Positions 2,827-20,703 of a stretch of 21,043 bases of DNA are shown in pieces. The DNA is taken from IMG/VR virus record IMGVR_UViG_3300009068_000233, positions 1-21,043 of that record, one strand, 5' to 3'. The stretch comes from a virus. A program made the position numbers and the translations under genes. Position 1 is the first letter of the stretch. Each line of letters starts with the position of its first letter. The notes below the pieces were generated by a model. It was not told the DNA's origin. It ran no database searches and worked only from the letters and a program-made list of their open reading frames with translations.

Positions 2827-5800
2827 TCATTTTTCCCAACCTCTTAGTTTGGCTTTTTCACGATACTCTTGTGCTTGTTTCTTAAGCAGCTTTTCACGCT
2901 CTGCTCTAGCAGCTTTCTTTTGTTCTGGTGTTCCACCATAAACAGGAAAGCCAAGTGTTCCTAGTAACGCACGTTTAGCACCTTCGCCTTCAGGAGCGCC
3001 AGCAGCAGCTTGAATTTGAAAGGGTGTAGCCATTTGAGCAACAGCTTTAAGCCTACCAAAAGCACTACGATCAACCAATTTTGGCGCATCAGGACTAGCG
3101 TACTCTAAACCACCAATACCAACAATAGCAGCCTTGGGTATAAACCCTAGTTTATTAGACAGTGTTTTACTTGGGTCCATTATCCAGTGATAGGGTTCCA
3201 TAGCGTGTTTCATAGCTTGCATGGACGTACCGTCAGGATACTCAATACGAGTTGGGTCTTTATTTTCCCAAATAGGACGATCCGCAGTCATCAAGTTAAT
3301 AGCATTAACTAGCGTAAGGTACGTCAAAGCAGTTTTGAATTGATACAACCTAGCATAATCTGCTTTAGTTGTAGGAACCATCATGCCTTTAAGACCTTCA
3401 ACAGGTTGCCATTTAGTAGGATTCAATCCTTTGGGAAGAGCAGCAGTAAATGCTCGCAAAGTAGATATAGTCCAATCAGGAGCAAACAAAAGAACTTGCA
3501 AAGCTCTACGACCTTCAGGACTATACGCAGCCATAGACATGCGTTTAGCAAACTCATTTTGAGTCTGCGTAGCAGCATCAAACCAATTCAAACCACCAAA
3601 ACTGTCGTTAACAAATCTAGAGATTTCTTTACGAGCAACAGCTTCATCAAAAGGTTTGCCGTCTTTAGAAGCTTGTATACGAGCTTTATCTAAATAAGCA
3701 TTAGCCACCATCAACTTACCACCAGTATGCAAATAGTCCCACGTATATTTGTCAAACAAACCTAGGGTGTATTTTTCAACAGCAGTCAAAGACGATTCAA
3801 GTATGCGGGTCTTAGGACCATACTTACCAATCATTGAATCTACAAACTTGCCTGTAGAAGACAAAATACCTCTAACAACATCTTCGGGAATTTCAAGTAC
3901 AAGTCCACCATCTCTAATCCACAGGTCAACACTTTCCCCAACTCCACCTTTTCTAAACTGCTCAACAGCCTTAGAAATTGCAGATAACTGCAACTCTTTA
4001 CCAGTGACAGCTTTGATACCTCTCTCAACAAGAGGCAACACAATAGCTTCTTTAAGTGGTGTCAAAATAGGAATCTGAGCACTAGACATAACTTCCATCA
4101 AAGACTTAGCATGGAAGAAAGAACCAATAACGTTAATACGTTTAGTAAGTTGAGAAACAGCTCCAAGAGCTTTCATCATCTCACCAGGACCAGCATCAAA
4201 AACAAACTTCAAAGCTGGCATCATGTCAGGATGCACGGCATAACCAGCAAACTGAGGACTATCCATCATCTGCCAACCAGGTGGCATTGGATTGTCTTTA
4301 GAAACTTCTTTGATTAAAGTCTCACCATTGACGTTGCGAATCTGTTTAAGACTATCTACAAGATTTTTGTTTTCAATTGCCTTTTCCATTGACAAGGCAT
4401 ACTCTTTATAGATTTCAGCGATGTCTTTGGTCTTAATCTGAATACGATAATCAGATTTACCAGCAGCAGCAATACGAGTGTTAGCTTCGTTTATATACCA
4501 CTCTAAGTCTGCAAAGGTTTTGAACTTACGTTCTTTACCAAATTTAGACTCAGTGCTCATACCTCTCATAGAAGGGTCCCGTGCAGCTGTTCCTAGTAAC
4601 GCTTGGATAAACTCTTCACGAGCACCTTTGGGAGCACCTTTCCAATCAATGATGTGGGTAACGTAATCTTCCAACAGACCTTTAACAACACCAGCATCGA
4701 CAGCACGATTGCCAATATCCTTGACAAGAGCTTCATACTTCTTAGCAAGAACAACTTCTTCAGGACTTAGTTTAGATAGATCACCCCTGTCAACAGCTTC
4801 AGCAACAGCTTCACGCCTAGCAGGATCAGAGATGTCCTTCATCATGTCACTTGCTTCATTGTGAATGATGCGCTCATTGGCAAGTTTGTTTTGGATATTC
4901 ATTCCAACAAACTTCTCAGTCTCTTTGATGGGTTCTAACCAAGTCTTTTTGTAGTTTTTATAACCCTCATAGAACTCAACAGCAGCTACCTTGCCATGTT
5001 TTGCAAAGATGTCAGCAGCAATATCGTAGAACTCTTCCTCACTTTTAACATCACGAGGATCAGTTTTAGTCTTGTCAACAGGAAGCTCATCTGGTGAGCT
5101 TATGGCTTTAGAAGGAACACTTGTTGCAAAATCAGCACGAGGAGTAAACTGCTCAGACTGCTTAAGCATTGAAATGCCACTGTCCATGACCTCATCAAAG
5201 GCTGTACGAGCACCTTCAGGAATGCCGTTGCTTTTACGAACAACTTCTTTGAAAGCACCCCATAAGTTATTAAGAACACCTTTAGGTTGTTGACCAACAC
5301 TAATGCCGCTTAACAATGTTTGAAATCTTTTGCTAGTAAATGCTTCAGCAGTAAACTCATGTATGTCTTCAAATCCGTAATATGGTTTACCTGTAGCAGG
5401 ATCAATTTCTTTACCACGAGCAGCTAGATAGGTATCAAATAGCTCTTGCATCTTGATAGCAGCAGCACTACCCTTTTCATTTAGTAGTCGATGTGTACCA
5501 GCATGAATAGCTTCATGTAACAAGACACGTAAACTGCCGTCTTTACCTAATTGAACTAGGTGTGAATTGCCGCCTGTGTACAAACCCGAAGCATTTTGTT
5601 GTTCAGCACCACTCTTATCTACGTACTCAAGAGGATCATTTGAAAGCTTAAGCTTAGCACTGCGAATGAAATCAGACTTGTTAAGAGCTTTAGCAAGTAT
5701 GCGTTGACTAACAGTTCCTAAACTGGGAGTATCAACAACACGATCTAAAGCTTCGCCTACATTCTTAACGCCATACAAATGATTGTGAAATTCTTCCCAA

Positions 5801-7515
5801 GTAGGTTTGTTGATGTTAGCAAATTTAACTGGAGGCATACTGTCAATTAAATCTTTACGCTTCTGCTCCAATTGTTGTTGTTTTTCTTGCAGATTTTTAA
5901 CAGCCTCAAAATCACCTTTGACTGTAGCTCTTTTTATGTCAATAGGTATGCCAATGTTTAAATCCCAATCTATTTTGGAAACATCATCTTTAATATCCTG
6001 TCTGCCTAAAGGGGCAGACTCCAACATAGATTCTTGTTTAGCAATTTCAGCATTTATTTTGTTTATATTTTTTTGTGCAAGGTCTATTTCAGCTTGATTG
6101 TTATTTTCTTTAGCCAACTTTAGTTCTTCAGTGGCTTCAATTCTAATCATTTCAAGATTGCTAATAACTCTTTTATAGAAGTCTTTATTTTCTTTTGGCA
6201 CACCAATAGGTTGCTCATCAGTAGTTTGAAAACGTTTATCACCAGCTTTACGCAAGTCGTCACTACGCAACCCTACTTCAGGAACTTCTGGCACATAATC
6301 TTTAGGAAGTTGTCCAGTATTTTTAGCACGATCAGCAGCTTCTTGACGAGTTAAAAAGTTACCACGTTCATCTAAGAAACCCTGGTCATGGGTGTCAAAA
6401 GTTTCAAGCTTACGTTGTTCATCATGTTTTGGTCCCATGCGTTCTACTGCACCAGTCTCTTTGTTCCTAATAGCAGCTTCAACAATAGGAGTTTTAGAGT
6501 CACGAATAACTTCAAGCTTATTTAAATAAGCATCTATTTCTTGTGGAGGAGAATCTTTAGGGGGTTCAGGAGGCAAATCAACTGGAGTTATTTCAATAGG
6601 TTTGACAGGTCTAACACCACCAGGTAAGACACTAGAAATTTTTTCACCAATCTTTTGACCAGCAACAAAAGGAATCCTACCTGCTATGTTAAATCCAGGC
6701 ATAGCTGCACCAGCAGCCGTAGCTGCTGCTACTTTCAAAGGTTCAATTGTTCCTGTTTCAGCATATTCAGTACCAGCCTCAATACCACCTTGTAAACCAC
6801 CAGATACAGTACGTTGTCCAATAGGACTAGCAACAAATCGAGCAGCTCTACTAGCGCCATCAGACACAGCACTAACAGCAGTTCTGGGAGACATGCCAGC
6901 CATACCTACACCTAATTCAGTTAAGAATGTAGATGTTGGATATGCTTCTTTTTCTATTTGACGTTGTGCATAATCTTCAGGAGCAAATGTTTTGTGCATC
7001 AAGTCTTGAACTTTTTTAGCAGCACCAGATGCAACCATTGCTCCACCAAATCCACCACCAAGCATAACAGCTCCCCCAACAATAGGAGCAAATGGAGCAC
7101 CAACACCCGTGGCTGCTGTAGCAGCAGCAGCACTAGCAGCATATGGAGCAGCTATAGCCATACCAGCACCAAAGCCAGCTAAACCAGCACCAGTAGGAAC
7201 AATTGCTTCTCCACCAGTACGATATATGTTTCTTCCGAGTCTACTTGCAGCGTCGCTTGTAGAGCCTGATTGCAAACCAGGTTTAGAGTACATACCAAAA
7301 GCAGCACCACCCTCACCCTCAATAATAGGAGTAGTTGAAGGTCTAGCTTCTGGTTTTTTAGGTATCAAATTATCAAAAGAAATATTAGCTTCTTTGGAAG
7401 AACTTGCTTTGCTTGGGATCAAATCATCAAAAGAAATGTTTGTCCCTTTACTTGGAGTTGATGATCCTTGTTGTTTGGTTGGAATAAGATCGTCAAAAGA
7501 AATGTCAGTAGCCAT
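2827..7515 (-). CDS. Giant internal virion / DNA-ejection protein with zincin-like domain
   Basis: This 1562-aa protein is the largest here and probably leaves the capsid with the DNA, like P22 gp16 or T7 gp16. In order: three short repeats of the form ISFDDLIPxK at residues 5-14, 27-36 and 45-54; an Ala/Gly-rich, membrane-like region (about 105-165); long helical segments rich in Lys/Glu (about 450-560); a zinc-protease signature H667-E668-A-I-H671, with candidate third ligands E720/E724 in HEFTAEAF; a helical region with YVTHIIDW near 950; hydrophobic stretches near 1130-1165; and a basic helical C-terminus. The HExxH plus downstream Glu arrangement matches zincin domains of phage polyvalent proteins. 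The ribosome site AGGAG lies inside the end of the upstream gene, 6 bases before the ATG. The role is inferred from size, domains and synteny. Confidence 0.8.
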   Translation of the reverse strand: MATDISFDDLIPTKQQGSSTPSKGTNISFDDLIPSKASSSKEANISFDNLIPKKPEARPSTTPIIEGEGGAAFGMYSKPGLQSGSTSDAASRLGRNIYRTGGEAIVPTGAGLAGFGAGMAIAAPYAASAAAATAATGVGAPFAPIVGGAVMLGGGFGGAMVASGAAKKVQDLMHKTFAPEDYAQRQIEKEAYPTSTFLTELGVGMAGMSPRTAVSAVSDGASRAARFVASPIGQRTVSGGLQGGIEAGTEYAETGTIEPLKVAAATAAGAAMPGFNIAGRIPFVAGQKIGEKISSVLPGGVRPVKPIEITPVDLPPEPPKDSPPQEIDAYLNKLEVIRDSKTPIVEAAIRNKETGAVERMGPKHDEQRKLETFDTHDQGFLDERGNFLTRQEAADRAKNTGQLPKDYVPEVPEVGLRSDDLRKAGDKRFQTTDEQPIGVPKENKDFYKRVISNLEMIRIEATEELKLAKENNNQAEIDLAQKNINKINAEIAKQESMLESAPLGRQDIKDDVSKIDWDLNIGIPIDIKRATVKGDFEAVKNLQEKQQQLEQKRKDLIDSMPPVKFANINKPTWEEFHNHLYGVKNVGEALDRVVDTPSLGTVSQRILAKALNKSDFIRSAKLKLSNDPLEYVDKSGAEQQNASGLYTGGNSHLVQLGKDGSLRVLLHEAIHAGTHRLLNEKGSAAAIKMQELFDTYLAARGKEIDPATGKPYYGFEDIHEFTAEAFTSKRFQTLLSGISVGQQPKGVLNNLWGAFKEVVRKSNGIPEGARTAFDEVMDSGISMLKQSEQFTPRADFATSVPSKAISSPDELPVDKTKTDPRDVKSEEEFYDIAADIFAKHGKVAAVEFYEGYKNYKKTWLEPIKETEKFVGMNIQNKLANERIIHNEASDMMKDISDPARREAVAEAVDRGDLSKLSPEEVVLAKKYEALVKDIGNRAVDAGVVKGLLEDYVTHIIDWKGAPKGAREEFIQALLGTAARDPSMRGMSTESKFGKERKFKTFADLEWYINEANTRIAAAGKSDYRIQIKTKDIAEIYKEYALSMEKAIENKNLVDSLKQIRNVNGETLIKEVSKDNPMPPGWQMMDSPQFAGYAVHPDMMPALKFVFDAGPGEMMKALGAVSQLTKRINVIGSFFHAKSLMEVMSSAQIPILTPLKEAIVLPLVERGIKAVTGKELQLSAISKAVEQFRKGGVGESVDLWIRDGGLVLEIPEDVVRGILSSTGKFVDSMIGKYGPKTRILESSLTAVEKYTLGLFDKYTWDYLHTGGKLMVANAYLDKARIQASKDGKPFDEAVARKEISRFVNDSFGGLNWFDAATQTQNEFAKRMSMAAYSPEGRRALQVLLFAPDWTISTLRAFTAALPKGLNPTKWQPVEGLKGMMVPTTKADYARLYQFKTALTYLTLVNAINLMTADRPIWENKDPTRIEYPDGTSMQAMKHAMEPYHWIMDPSKTLSNKLGFIPKAAIVGIGGLEYASPDAPKLVDRSAFGRLKAVAQMATPFQIQAAAGAPEGEGAKRALLGTLGFPVYGGTPEQKKAARAEREKLLKKQAQEYREKAKLRGWEK
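7354..7503 (-). repeat. Three tandem copies of an ISFDDLIPxK-type peptide motif
   Basis: Within the first 54 residues of the giant ejection protein the motif occurs as ISFDDLIPTK, ISFDDLIPSK and ISFDNLIPKK, separated by Ser/Lys-rich flexible linkers of 12 and 8 residues. Short acidic-hydrophobic motifs spaced by disordered linkers look like docking peptides. The partner is not known. Confidence 0.9.
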
Positions 7516-9136: not shown

Positions 9137-9826
9137 TTAACGAATAGAAGGGCCATAAGCACCTCCATAATTAGCAGTGTCAACCGCACCCATACCGCCA
9201 CTACCAATACCGTAGCCACTTTCATACTGACTAAATCCTTGATCGTTGTATCCATATGGTGCGTTCATTTGTGCGCCAGTACCAGTACCACGATATTGTC
9301 CAGCAAGACCAGAAAGACCTATAGAAAGAGCACCAAGACCTTGTTGAAAGGCTTGTTGATTTTGACTATCTTGAACTAAACCAAGTCTAGCTGCTTCAGA
9401 TGGTGCAGCACCTGCACCAGAACCCACAGCAAGTCGATTAAGATAGTCGGTCATAAAGCCATAGTAGCCTTTTTGTCCAATGCCTTGAAGATCTATTTGC
9501 TCATTACCAGAGTACAACATTCCAGACTTTGATGCAGAACGTTTAGAAGCTTCCATAGCAGGATCTAATACACCACTTTGAAATTGACTATATCCTGGCA
9601 TTTTGGTAGGGTCTAATGTGCTACCACTAGTTAAAGCACCACTATACATAGAAGCAAGATTACTTCTATAAGGAGCAAAAGGATCAGCAGCAGCTTGAGC
9701 TTCAGCACCACTAGCAGAACCCTTGCCACCAAAAAGTTTACTTACTCCACCACCAGTAAGTGCGTTAACACCTGCGGCAATGCCTACAACTGAAGCAACA
9801 GTTGTTAATGAGATTCCAGCAGACAT
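9137..9826 (-). CDS. P22 gp7-like DNA ejection protein
   Basis: This 229-aa protein has a hydrophobic N-terminus (about 5-30, SVVGIAAGVNALTGG) that could insert into a membrane. A Gln/Ser/Ala-rich helical middle and a Gly/Tyr-rich C-terminus with repeated YG elements follow. Small, Gly/Ala-rich proteins with this profile precede the larger ejection proteins in P22-like podoviruses, and the order here matches. The start is secure: a long purine site (GGAGAGGGG) lies 7 bases before the ATG, inside the end of the cupin-SET gene, which it overlaps by 22 bases. Confidence 0.65.
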   Translation of the reverse strand: MSAGISLTTVASVVGIAAGVNALTGGGVSKLFGGKGSASGAEAQAAADPFAPYRSNLASMYSGALTSGSTLDPTKMPGYSQFQSGVLDPAMEASKRSASKSGMLYSGNEQIDLQGIGQKGYYGFMTDYLNRLAVGSGAGAAPSEAARLGLVQDSQNQQAFQQGLGALSIGLSGLAGQYRGTGTGAQMNAPYGYNDQGFSQYESGYGIGSGGMGAVDTANYGGAYGPSIR

Positions 9827-10707
9827 TTTTTATCCCCTCTCCAAAGATTATTTACTTGCATAGCTTGTCGATAGTCTAGAGTTATTTCTTCACCCAGATC
9901 ACCGCCTACCATGCCACTTATATCTCGTAATGCTACTAAGAACATATCTCCAAGACTGTTTGTAAAAGCTACTGCATTAGGAGTCTTAGAGTGGTTAATT
10001 AAATACCCCGCAGGGGTTCTACAACCACCAAGTCTCATAGGTGCAATGATGCTGTTTTGTTTAATCACAGCAGTAGAAAACATTCCTTTACCTTCTATAG
10101 GCGAGTCTCCAGCACATATGCTGTAGCTGCCATCTGGAAAGGGAATGCAATCTTCTCTGTGCTTAGAAGCTAACTCAATGTCTTCTAGAGTCCATCCAGA
10201 CTCTTCAACCATTAGCAAGAAGTCTTGTCGATCTTCTTCATGCAGCGGATATTCTTTAAGCAGTTTTTCTTGTTGATGTTGCTTAAGAATATCTGGAGAC
10301 TTGAACAACACAGACTCAAGGTATTGAACATCTGTGTTATTAGTAACATAGATATTTTGCCACACAACGTCCTCTAAAGTAAAGCCAACTTTACTACCAG
10401 CTTTAGCGACAAACATGTGTGGAGCTACCAAAGTTTGGACTTGACCATCCCCATCAACAACATTGATGCTACCTTTAAGCAACACATTCATATGTTCTGA
10501 AAGGTGTTCCTGACCCACAATCATTGTGTTTTTAGGATAGTAGGCTTCTCGAATATATAAGCCTCCACCAAATCTGTGGACAATAGAATTAGGAGTTTGC
10601 TCCTCATTCATCAACGCTTTAGCCAAAGCTAATTTACTATCTGTAGTACGGAGGTCAAAGCCTTCTTTAGTAGCAACAGAGTTAATAGCTTCTACAATTT
10701 GGTCCAA
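9805..10707 (-). CDS. Cupin-SET fusion protein, putative protein lysine methyltransferase
   Basis: This 300-aa protein has two recognisable parts. Residues about 45-125 look like a cupin barrel: GQEHLSEHMNVLLKGS (65-80) carries H68 and H72 in the first cupin motif, followed by a Pro/Gly turn (AP 95-96, AGS 103-105). The second-motif histidine is not obvious. Residues about 202-282 look like a SET domain: GKGMF (206-210) matches the AdoMet-side GxG segment, NHSKTPNA (238-245) the NHS pseudoknot strand, and GEEITLDY (272-279) the final motif with its Tyr. Cysteines of a post-SET motif are missing. The start is a TTG with AGGAGA 6 bases upstream, embedded in the last codons of the gp10-like gene. 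Likely activity is methylation of a protein Lys, of the virion or the host. The substrate is unknown. Confidence 0.8.
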   Translation of the reverse strand: MDQIVEAINSVATKEGFDLRTTDSKLALAKALMNEEQTPNSIVHRFGGGLYIREAYYPKNTMIVGQEHLSEHMNVLLKGSINVVDGDGQVQTLVAPHMFVAKAGSKVGFTLEDVVWQNIYVTNNTDVQYLESVLFKSPDILKQHQQEKLLKEYPLHEEDRQDFLLMVEESGWTLEDIELASKHREDCIPFPDGSYSICAGDSPIEGKGMFSTAVIKQNSIIAPMRLGGCRTPAGYLINHSKTPNAVAFTNSLGDMFLVALRDISGMVGGDLGEEITLDYRQAMQVNNLWRGDKKCLLESH

Positions 10708-19477: not shown

Positions 19478-19517
19478 TTTAAAATCCTATGTTGACATAA
19501 GTGTTACACAAACAACA

Positions 19518-19564
19518 CTATCTATTAGATAGCGTCATCATCAGGGTTTGCACAAACATTGTGC
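19518..19564. repeat. Two perfect inverted repeats in an intergenic stretch
   Basis: In the roughly 100-base gap between the 46-aa gene and the beta-helix gene are a 15-base palindrome CTATCTA-T-TAGATAG (19518-19532) and a 6-bp hairpin GCACAA-ACA-TTGTGC (19550-19564). Neither is followed by a T-run on the minus strand. They could be mRNA-stabilising hairpins, a processing site or an operator. No convincing promoter is visible around them. Confidence 0.6.
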
Positions 19565-19579
19565 TGATTACATTCTACG

Positions 19580-19720
19580 TTACATTTTCTTTTTGTACAT
19601 AGTTTTTTTAGCAGTCATGGTCTTTTTAGTGTCCATCATTTTTTTAGCTGGAGCCATTTTAGACATAGACATTTTGGGTTCAGGTTTCTGACCCATTTCT
19701 TTACGTTTTTCGTATGCCAT
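19580..19720 (-). CDS. Lys/Met-rich 46-aa basic protein
   Basis: This gene is supported by a strong ribosome site (AAAGGAA, 7 bases before the ATG) and lies just downstream of the capsid gene. Of 46 residues, 14 are Lys and 10 are Met, with only four acidic residues. Motifs such as PKMSMSKMAPAKKMM and TKKTMTAKKTM suggest irregular repeats of a K-K-x-M unit. It has no hydrophobic segment and is strongly positively charged, so it could bind DNA, RNA or acidic capsid surfaces, or be packaged with the genome. No known family is recognised. The extreme composition comes from AAA/AAG and ATG codons, so low complexity should be kept in mind. Confidence 0.75.
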   Translation of the reverse strand: MAYEKRKEMGQKPEPKMSMSKMAPAKKMMDTKKTMTAKKTMYKKKM

Positions 19721-19742
19721 GATAAATTTCCTTTAAAGAAGA

Positions 19743-19766
19743 ACCCCCTCTTTTTAGGGAGGGGGT
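19743..19766 (-). terminator. G+C-rich hairpin after the capsid gene
   Basis: ACCCCCTC (19743-19750) and GAGGGGGT (19759-19766) form a perfect 8-bp stem with an 8-base loop. On the minus strand the stem is followed by TTCTTCTTT, an interrupted U-tract. It sits 17 bases after the capsid stop and before the ribosome site of the 46-aa gene. A terminator in this place, partly read through, is also found after the T7 capsid gene. It may set high capsid expression relative to the downstream genes, or stabilise the capsid mRNA's 3' end. Confidence 0.75.
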
Positions 19767-19782
19767 ATGTTACTAATAACAA

Positions 19783-20703
19783 TTACGGACCGTTACTACC
19801 CCAGACAGCACGAGAATCAGACCAGCCAAAGCTGTAACGCTCATAGCCTTTAGCTTTGACGTTCATGGTATCAAAGTCATTGTCTTGATCAAACGTGATA
19901 GCATGGCGTTCATAGTACTTCATACCACTACCACCAGGGATAGTATTACGAATAAACCAAGCATGTGGGCTTGAGAAGTAGTGATTTACTTTGAAGCCTC
20001 CAGGCAAGTAGTTACTACTAGCAATAACGTTAATGTCATTGTTAGCATTACCTGTTTGGTACTTAGAGTGAAGAATGCGTTGAGCATTAAACACTTCTTG
20101 ACGAGCAATGTGCAAGCAGTAAGGTTGAATAGCAATCATCAAACCACGATCATTTTGCAGACCCATGATTGCAATCACTGCATCTTCCAAAGCAGCTTCA
20201 GACAAATCTACATCAACTGTAGGCTTGTTGGCCCAAGTTCCACCAGTGGTGTTGGGATGGTCTGTAGCACAGAGTGCTTTGCCATCACCGCCAGCATAAG
20301 TAGAATTAAACGCACGGTTGTAAACGTTAGCAGCTACGTTTTCTTTCGTTTGACGGAAAGACATAGCGAGTGCTGCTGCACGTTTTTTGGACACTACTTC
20401 ATACAAGTTGTCGTCCATCTCTTCTTTAGTAACAATATAACCCATTGCATATGCAACGTGCGTATAACGAGTTACGTAGCCTTGCACTTCAGAATCATAC
20501 TGAACACCAGAGCCTTGTGACTTAACTGGTACAAGACCAAATCCAGTCAGTTGGACATCTTCTTCGTAGTTTTGAGTAGAAGTGTCTTTGTCAAACAAGT
20601 CTACATACTCTTCAGGGTGCTCGTCATAAGTCTGTCCCCACCAAGCCTTGATGCCAGGCCATAGTGCTTTCGGGTGGGAACTGGTTGTGATAATGCCAGC
20701 CAT
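19783..20703 (-). CDS. Major capsid protein
   Basis: This 306-aa protein has the profile of an HK97-fold capsid protein of the Mu gpT-like kind. Features are an N-terminal helix with ALWPGIKAWWGQTYDE (about 13-28), a beta region (GLVPVKSQGSGVQYDSEVQG, about 56-75), and the alpha-spine-like helix EVVSKKRAAALAMSFRQTKE (about 102-121). A loop with ALCATDHPNTTGGTWANKP (about 143-161) and a C-terminal half with YYERHAITFDQDNDFDTM and FGWSDSRAVWG follow. The gene context (head protein before, hairpin after) agrees. The ribosome site AGGAGA lies 7 bases before the ATG. No N-terminal pro-domain is visible, so any scaffold should be a separate gene to the right. Confidence 0.88.
   Translation of the reverse strand: MAGIITTSSHPKALWPGIKAWWGQTYDEHPEEYVDLFDKDTSTQNYEEDVQLTGFGLVPVKSQGSGVQYDSEVQGYVTRYTHVAYAMGYIVTKEEMDDNLYEVVSKKRAAALAMSFRQTKENVAANVYNRAFNSTYAGGDGKALCATDHPNTTGGTWANKPTVDVDLSEAALEDAVIAIMGLQNDRGLMIAIQPYCLHIARQEVFNAQRILHSKYQTGNANNDINVIASSNYLPGGFKVNHYFSSPHAWFIRNTIPGGSGMKYYERHAITFDQDNDFDTMNVKAKGYERYSFGWSDSRAVWGSNGP

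Follow-up and report, generated by a model that had tools for sequence, protein, structure and literature searches.

Judged from comparison with its relatives, the gene for a 46-residue protein behind the major capsid gene of the virus record IMGVR_UViG_3300009068_000233 is a real coding gene, under purifying selection on its protein product. We tentatively propose, with a probability of about 40%, that this product is an accessory peptide of the capsid module, in which a conserved core would dock onto another protein (probably the shell) and a variable basic tail would bind nucleic acid, in a manner similar to protein J of phiX174.

A conserved coding gene behind the capsid gene

The analyzed DNA (positions 1 to 21,043 of the record, 21,043 nucleotides; hereafter referred to as the window) carries this microgene on the minus strand at 19580..19720, with an ATG start codon at 19718-19720. 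Its product, MAYEKRKEMGQKPEPKMSMSKMAPAKKMMDTKKTMTAKKTMYKKKM, contains 14 lysines and 10 methionines among its 46 residues and has a net charge of +11; position and residue counts thus agree with the original prediction. The predicted ribosome site was found as well: an SD-like AAAGGA (19729..19734, minus strand) lies 8 nt before the ATG. The slot is part of the structural module and is defined by the gene for the 306-aa major capsid protein of the HK97 fold (19783..20703, minus strand; phrog_371, PF25209), which is encoded on the same strand directly upstream. The AF2 model of the capsid protein (pLDDT 82), calculated from an alignment of the window and viral-contig rows only, matched HK97-fold shells in Foldseek, both encapsulins and phage shells. 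The capsid stop codon occupies 19783-19785, and the microgene begins 62 nt downstream of the capsid gene. The claim that it follows directly after the capsid gene needs one qualification: the 62-nt gap contains a strong terminator-like hairpin. The composition of the protein exceeds chance: the window has 65 ORFs that encode 30-70 aa, of which this one alone consists of at least 50% lysine plus methionine, and none of 8574 ORFs of this size across 100 simulated windows did so.

Related loci were collected with the window capsid protein as bait (best 80 related loci), with two divergent capsid queries (160 further loci, the best 80 for each) and with a DNA motif (36 further contigs). As each scan is limited to its best 80 loci, the edge of the clade is approximate. 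Where the capsid was at least 69% identical (among the matches listed), all 135 distinct regions had a tiny ORF downstream of the capsid gene, and 123 of these regions had been found by capsid searches alone. No frame was broken in any of them, so the predicted gene withstood the search for frame-disrupting indels. The slot ORFs comprised 103 type A proteins with a KGKRP-like core, to which the window protein belongs, 31 type B proteins and one variant. An ATG start was found in 134 and an SD also in 134 of the 135; the apparent SD failure at L155 is a matter of start-codon choice, and the internal ATG there reads MQTIKTP, as in relatives. From the 36 motif matches in the viral collection, 31 were a microgene behind the capsid gene. 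Fourteen tiny genes lie farther from the capsid gene owing to inserted sequence, yet are kept. At several loci (L132, L135, L138, L143, L159, L161, L162 and L069), extra genes occupy precisely the gap from the capsid gene to the microgene, which is kept behind them, and several of these genes show HNH-like Cys/His sequence.

Selection across the relatives was purifying, in line with the prediction of a gene. For 53 distinct cores, pN/pS was 0.40 in the true frame (bootstrap 0.35-0.44), whereas the two alternative frames gave 2.2 and 1.2; pS was 0.69, which is near saturation. Pairs that were at least 75% identical had lower pN/pS values, 0.13 in the core and 0.20 in the tail. Since the amino acids are under purifying selection and synonymous sites are near saturation, we conclude that the product, and not the RNA, is constrained. 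The microgene is short and of low complexity, as a spurious ORF could be, but the difference in pN/pS between the frames, the retention of the slot ORF in every one of the 135 regions and a composition unmatched among the 8574 simulated ORFs leave practically no room for this explanation.

The suspicion that such a short gene is easily missed by automatic annotation proved correct. The window protein had no significant match in PHROGs, Pfam and NCBIfam, and other variants of the microprotein had none in PHROGs and NCBIfam. The one annotated close GenBank relative is MW202796, whose capsid is 71% identical to that of the window. There, the true homologue MGAALEEQKGKRPPVPPIKKPQ starts at L082:5003 (span L082:5003-5071, MW202796.1), and the record annotates an overlapping ORF in the wrong frame, started with GTG, over the true microgene. 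A tblastn search of GenBank phages with the peptide gave no match, probably owing to the brevity and low complexity of the query; homologues were obtained through the capsid gene and not by peptide search. Our literature searches found no earlier description of a basic microprotein encoded downstream of the capsid gene in phages of this kind.

Among distant capsid relatives (less than 68% identity), 10 of 62 first ORFs in the slot were small, and 5 of those were strongly basic. As small ORFs are so few there, the microgene is a trait of the clade and is not universal. A search of bacterial genomes for the capsid retrieved only relatives of 55-64% identity, all from alpha- and betaproteobacteria (Zavarzinia, Gluconacetobacter and a Rhodocyclaceae bin). 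The Gluconacetobacter genomes (L285, L293, L294 and L297; capsid ~56% identical) have small basic ORFs with His runs downstream of the capsid gene (MTKRKPTPPAPRR...HHHYHG; HHHHHYH).

Core, tail and the type B proteins

The N-terminal core MAYEKRKEMGQKPEP (19676..19720, minus strand) has the consensus M[SGA][YF]E..K..G[KQM][KR]P, which in the window protein reads MAYEKRKEMGQKP. Its residues M1, E4, K7, G10 and P13 were invariant in a 22-row alignment, and AF2 predicted a short helix at core residues 3-8. The shortest members of the family have 18 residues (MSYEREKEKGKRPEPNSK) and a net charge of about +2; many members have 19-31 residues, and the long forms with a K/M/A tail have 40-58.

The tail itself (residues 16-46; 19583..19675, minus strand) is rich in K, M and A and contains an imperfect direct repeat of 36 nt (12 codons). 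Its length varies in frame. AF2 predicted a helix at residues 19-45 with moderate confidence (peptide pTM 0.34). An amphipathic or coiled-coil tail was rejected, as the helical moment was 0.18 versus 0.43 for shuffles. The capsid tree places the short form on deep branches of both major clades, and the long tail changes about nine times on it, at least seven of which are forced by well-supported branches; these counts may be off by one, since the label of L179, a type B-like protein, was assigned by an automatic step. By these comparisons, the K/M/A tail is a recent extension that arose inside the window's clade and has been repeatedly gained or lost. Richness in lysine and methionine, the feature that had drawn attention to the gene, is thus not a conserved trait but belongs to a derived tail that the shortest and the deep-branching members lack. 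Conserved are the N-terminal core and, as predicted, a basic microprotein in its slot, kept in 135 of 135 regions: the net charge is positive in all members, with a median of +11 with the long tail and of +5 without it. Given charges of only +1 to +7 in the members of 18-22 residues, DNA condensation, one of the roles suggested originally, is unlikely as a shared function.

Type B proteins occupy the same slot, mostly in one subclade. They are basic, 59-74 aa long, and end in ...SG[VF]KKKR[ML]. Homology between types A and B was not supported (hhalign probability 1.9%). Two loci (L053 and L079) have two tandem tiny basic ORFs behind the capsid gene, the first ending in a Lys/Arg-rich stretch plus Cys and the second being the KGKRP form.

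Two other genes of the window had unusual features. The 300-aa protein encoded at 9805-10707 (minus strand) resembles tail fibre families in its N-terminal half, and its C-terminal half passes the Pfam cut-off for the SET domain (NHSKTPN, GEEITLDY), so that the structural module may encode a lysine methyltransferase. A link between this SET protein and the Lys-rich tail was rejected: 8 of 31 relatives have the SET gene, some beside the short and some beside the long microgene form, and it is missing from several long contigs with a long tail. The 1562-aa protein encoded at 2827-7515 (minus strand) begins with three imperfect ISFDDLIP copies, within its first ~55 residues.

Expression signals and RNA elements

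Right after the capsid stop lies a conserved small inverted repeat, TTGTTAYTAGTAACA (19768..19782, minus strand). Between it and the microgene is the terminator-like hairpin, ACCCCCTC-loop-GAGGGGGT with a T-rich run (19743..19766, minus strand; 8 pairs), which is kept in relatives with some pairs changed. Because this hairpin separates the two genes, high co-expression with the capsid gene cannot be assumed. Strong expression could instead come from the sigma-70 promoters of the sister clade, which in perfect form stand immediately before the microgene. Many members of that clade, as well as certain deep members of the clade to which the window belongs, carry a TTGACA-N17-TATAAT, perfect or nearly so, in the gap from capsid gene to microgene, and a stem-loop often comes after it (capsids of these promoter-bearing members were 69-81% identical). 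Before the window's own microgene, no sigma-70 promoter was detected above background; in its clade, those deep members aside, the gene is preceded by the terminator-like hairpin and by no promoter. The complete MW202796 has three perfect TTGACA-N17-TATAAT promoters in total. Two are on the microgene strand: the first precedes the microgene, and the second lies near the start of the late region, which it opens. The third is on the opposite strand, within a polymerase gene. These positions make the microgene promoter-proximal in MW202796, which fits strong expression; the sigma-70 promoter of the sister clade could also mean early or constitutive expression. At several loci (L146, L168, L156, L171 and others), the -35 TTGACA shortly after the capsid stop is flanked by an inverted repeat, the stems of which change together (TATACTT/AAGTATA, ACACTT/AAGTGT, ATGCTT/AAGCAT and ACTCTT/AAGAGT). 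These co-changing stems suggest a hairpin overlapping the promoter.

A second structured element, the covarying RNA hairpin GATGACGCTATC..GATAGTGTTGTT (19485..19545, minus strand), lies between the microgene and the next gene. Its consensus, ATGACGCYCT..AGRGCGTTGTT..AACAACGTCAnAGGA, shows several compensatory pair changes in 51 sequences (the window and 50 related regions). As its arms permit alternative pairings beside the ribosome site, this element may regulate the next gene. A search of the leader for known RNA families gave only a chance snoRNA-like match, far below its cut-off.

Possible functions of the microprotein

From the combination of a selected protein, the capsid slot, a fixed core and a free basic tail, we infer a docking motif with an electrostatic tail. 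Such a capsid-module accessory peptide would be expressed late. Its core, E-x-x-K-x-x-G-K-R-P, would serve as a short linear motif that docks onto another protein, most likely the HK97-fold product of the upstream capsid gene, and the Lys-rich tail, where present, would follow the packaged DNA (or RNA) through its charge and tune the contact between shell and genome. The strict linkage to the capsid gene in 135 of 135 regions, kept despite gene insertions, argues for this reading, as do the basic nature of all members, the in-frame variation of tail length with a 12-codon repeat, the slot in the structural module next to an HK97-fold shell and, in the sister clade, a microgene that comes first after a perfect promoter. 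On the other side, members of 18 aa with a charge of +2 would hardly bind DNA alone, and the peptide helix predicted by AF2, only moderately confident, is silent on the partner.

In phiX174, the gene for protein J likewise adjoins the capsid gene. The window protein resembles J-type peptides in being short, highly basic and encoded beside the capsid gene (46 aa, +11, 62 nt). J and VP8 line the interior of the shell, contact the genome and have few conserved anchor residues and a divergent basic part (SpV4 VP8, PMC11281519). The microprotein shares with phiX174 J and Microviridae VP8 the tiny size, the high basicity and the combination of a short conserved anchor with a divergent basic part. 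It differs in that J belongs to ssDNA phages with an unrelated capsid fold and has its anchor at the C-terminus, whereas the core of the microprotein is N-terminal. The likeness is architectural only, with no sequence relation or membership claimed. A parallel for the docking may be found in encapsulins, whose targeting peptides are C-terminal tags of cargo enzymes: a short motif that docks to the inner face of an HK97-fold shell is the mode proposed here for the core. The tail resembles the Lys/Ala-rich tails of histone H1-like proteins, which are low-complexity AKK-type repeats of variable length and strong positive charge; the microprotein has these features but, unlike histone H1, is Met-rich, has no globular domain, and its tail is optional in the family.

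It is somewhat unlikely that the peptide is instead a regulator acting outside the virion, with a core that binds a host or phage enzyme (e.g., of the transcription or translation machinery) and a slot that is simply a convenient site of strong expression. Host functions are the targets of many known small phage proteins (PMC11323111), and the short linear motif conserved in members of 18-22 residues would suit such a role, as would the perfect host-type sigma-70 promoter and leader hairpin before the microgene of the sister clade. However, the gene is always found in the structural module behind the capsid gene and never among early genes, and its basic charge is kept while the sequences change.

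We also consider it unlikely that the peptide works purely through protein-protein contacts, as an assembly or cement peptide gluing capsomers to each other or to the next structural protein, with an incidental basic tail. The strict slot adjoining the capsid gene and the tighter conservation of the core than of the tail in close pairs are compatible with this, and annotated cement or minor capsid proteins occupy the same slot in distant relatives, immediately behind the homologous capsid gene (DSL-LC04 and Pag-Yong1). These proteins are far larger, though, with about 140-150 aa versus 18-74 aa in the microproteins, and the maintenance of a net basic charge across the apparently unrelated types A and B speaks against an incidental role of charge.

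An attenuator, in which ribosomes translating a short leader ORF would govern the conserved RNA hairpin that precedes the next gene, is improbable. A tiny ORF with a conserved, covarying RNA element behind it, immediately ahead of the next gene, recalls this arrangement, as does the Pro-rich core of some members (RPPVPP), but the distance from core to stop ranges from about 3 to 45 codons, so that a stalled ribosome would stand at very different places. Moreover, the amino-acid constraint reaches into the tail, and in MW202796 the next gene follows without a hairpin.

Our preferred reading is that of a capsid-module accessory peptide. Extended to the whole family, it would mean that tailed phages equip a dsDNA head with a J-like peptide of 18-74 residues, built from an HK97-shell docking motif and an interchangeable, fast-evolving cationic tail, and that basic peptides of no apparent relation have substituted for each other in the slot. 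Such a system, which would be previously undescribed, we regard as doubtful in this full form. Standard annotation misses the microgene family or calls it in the wrong frame, although all members examined of a freshwater phage group, for which metagenomes yield hundreds of capsid matches, have kept it. Its strict slot recommends it as a test case for small-gene callers. Should the product be part of the head, it would rank with the smallest virion proteins that tailed phages have and offer a clean case of a short motif with a disposable charged tail in capsid assembly or genome contact.
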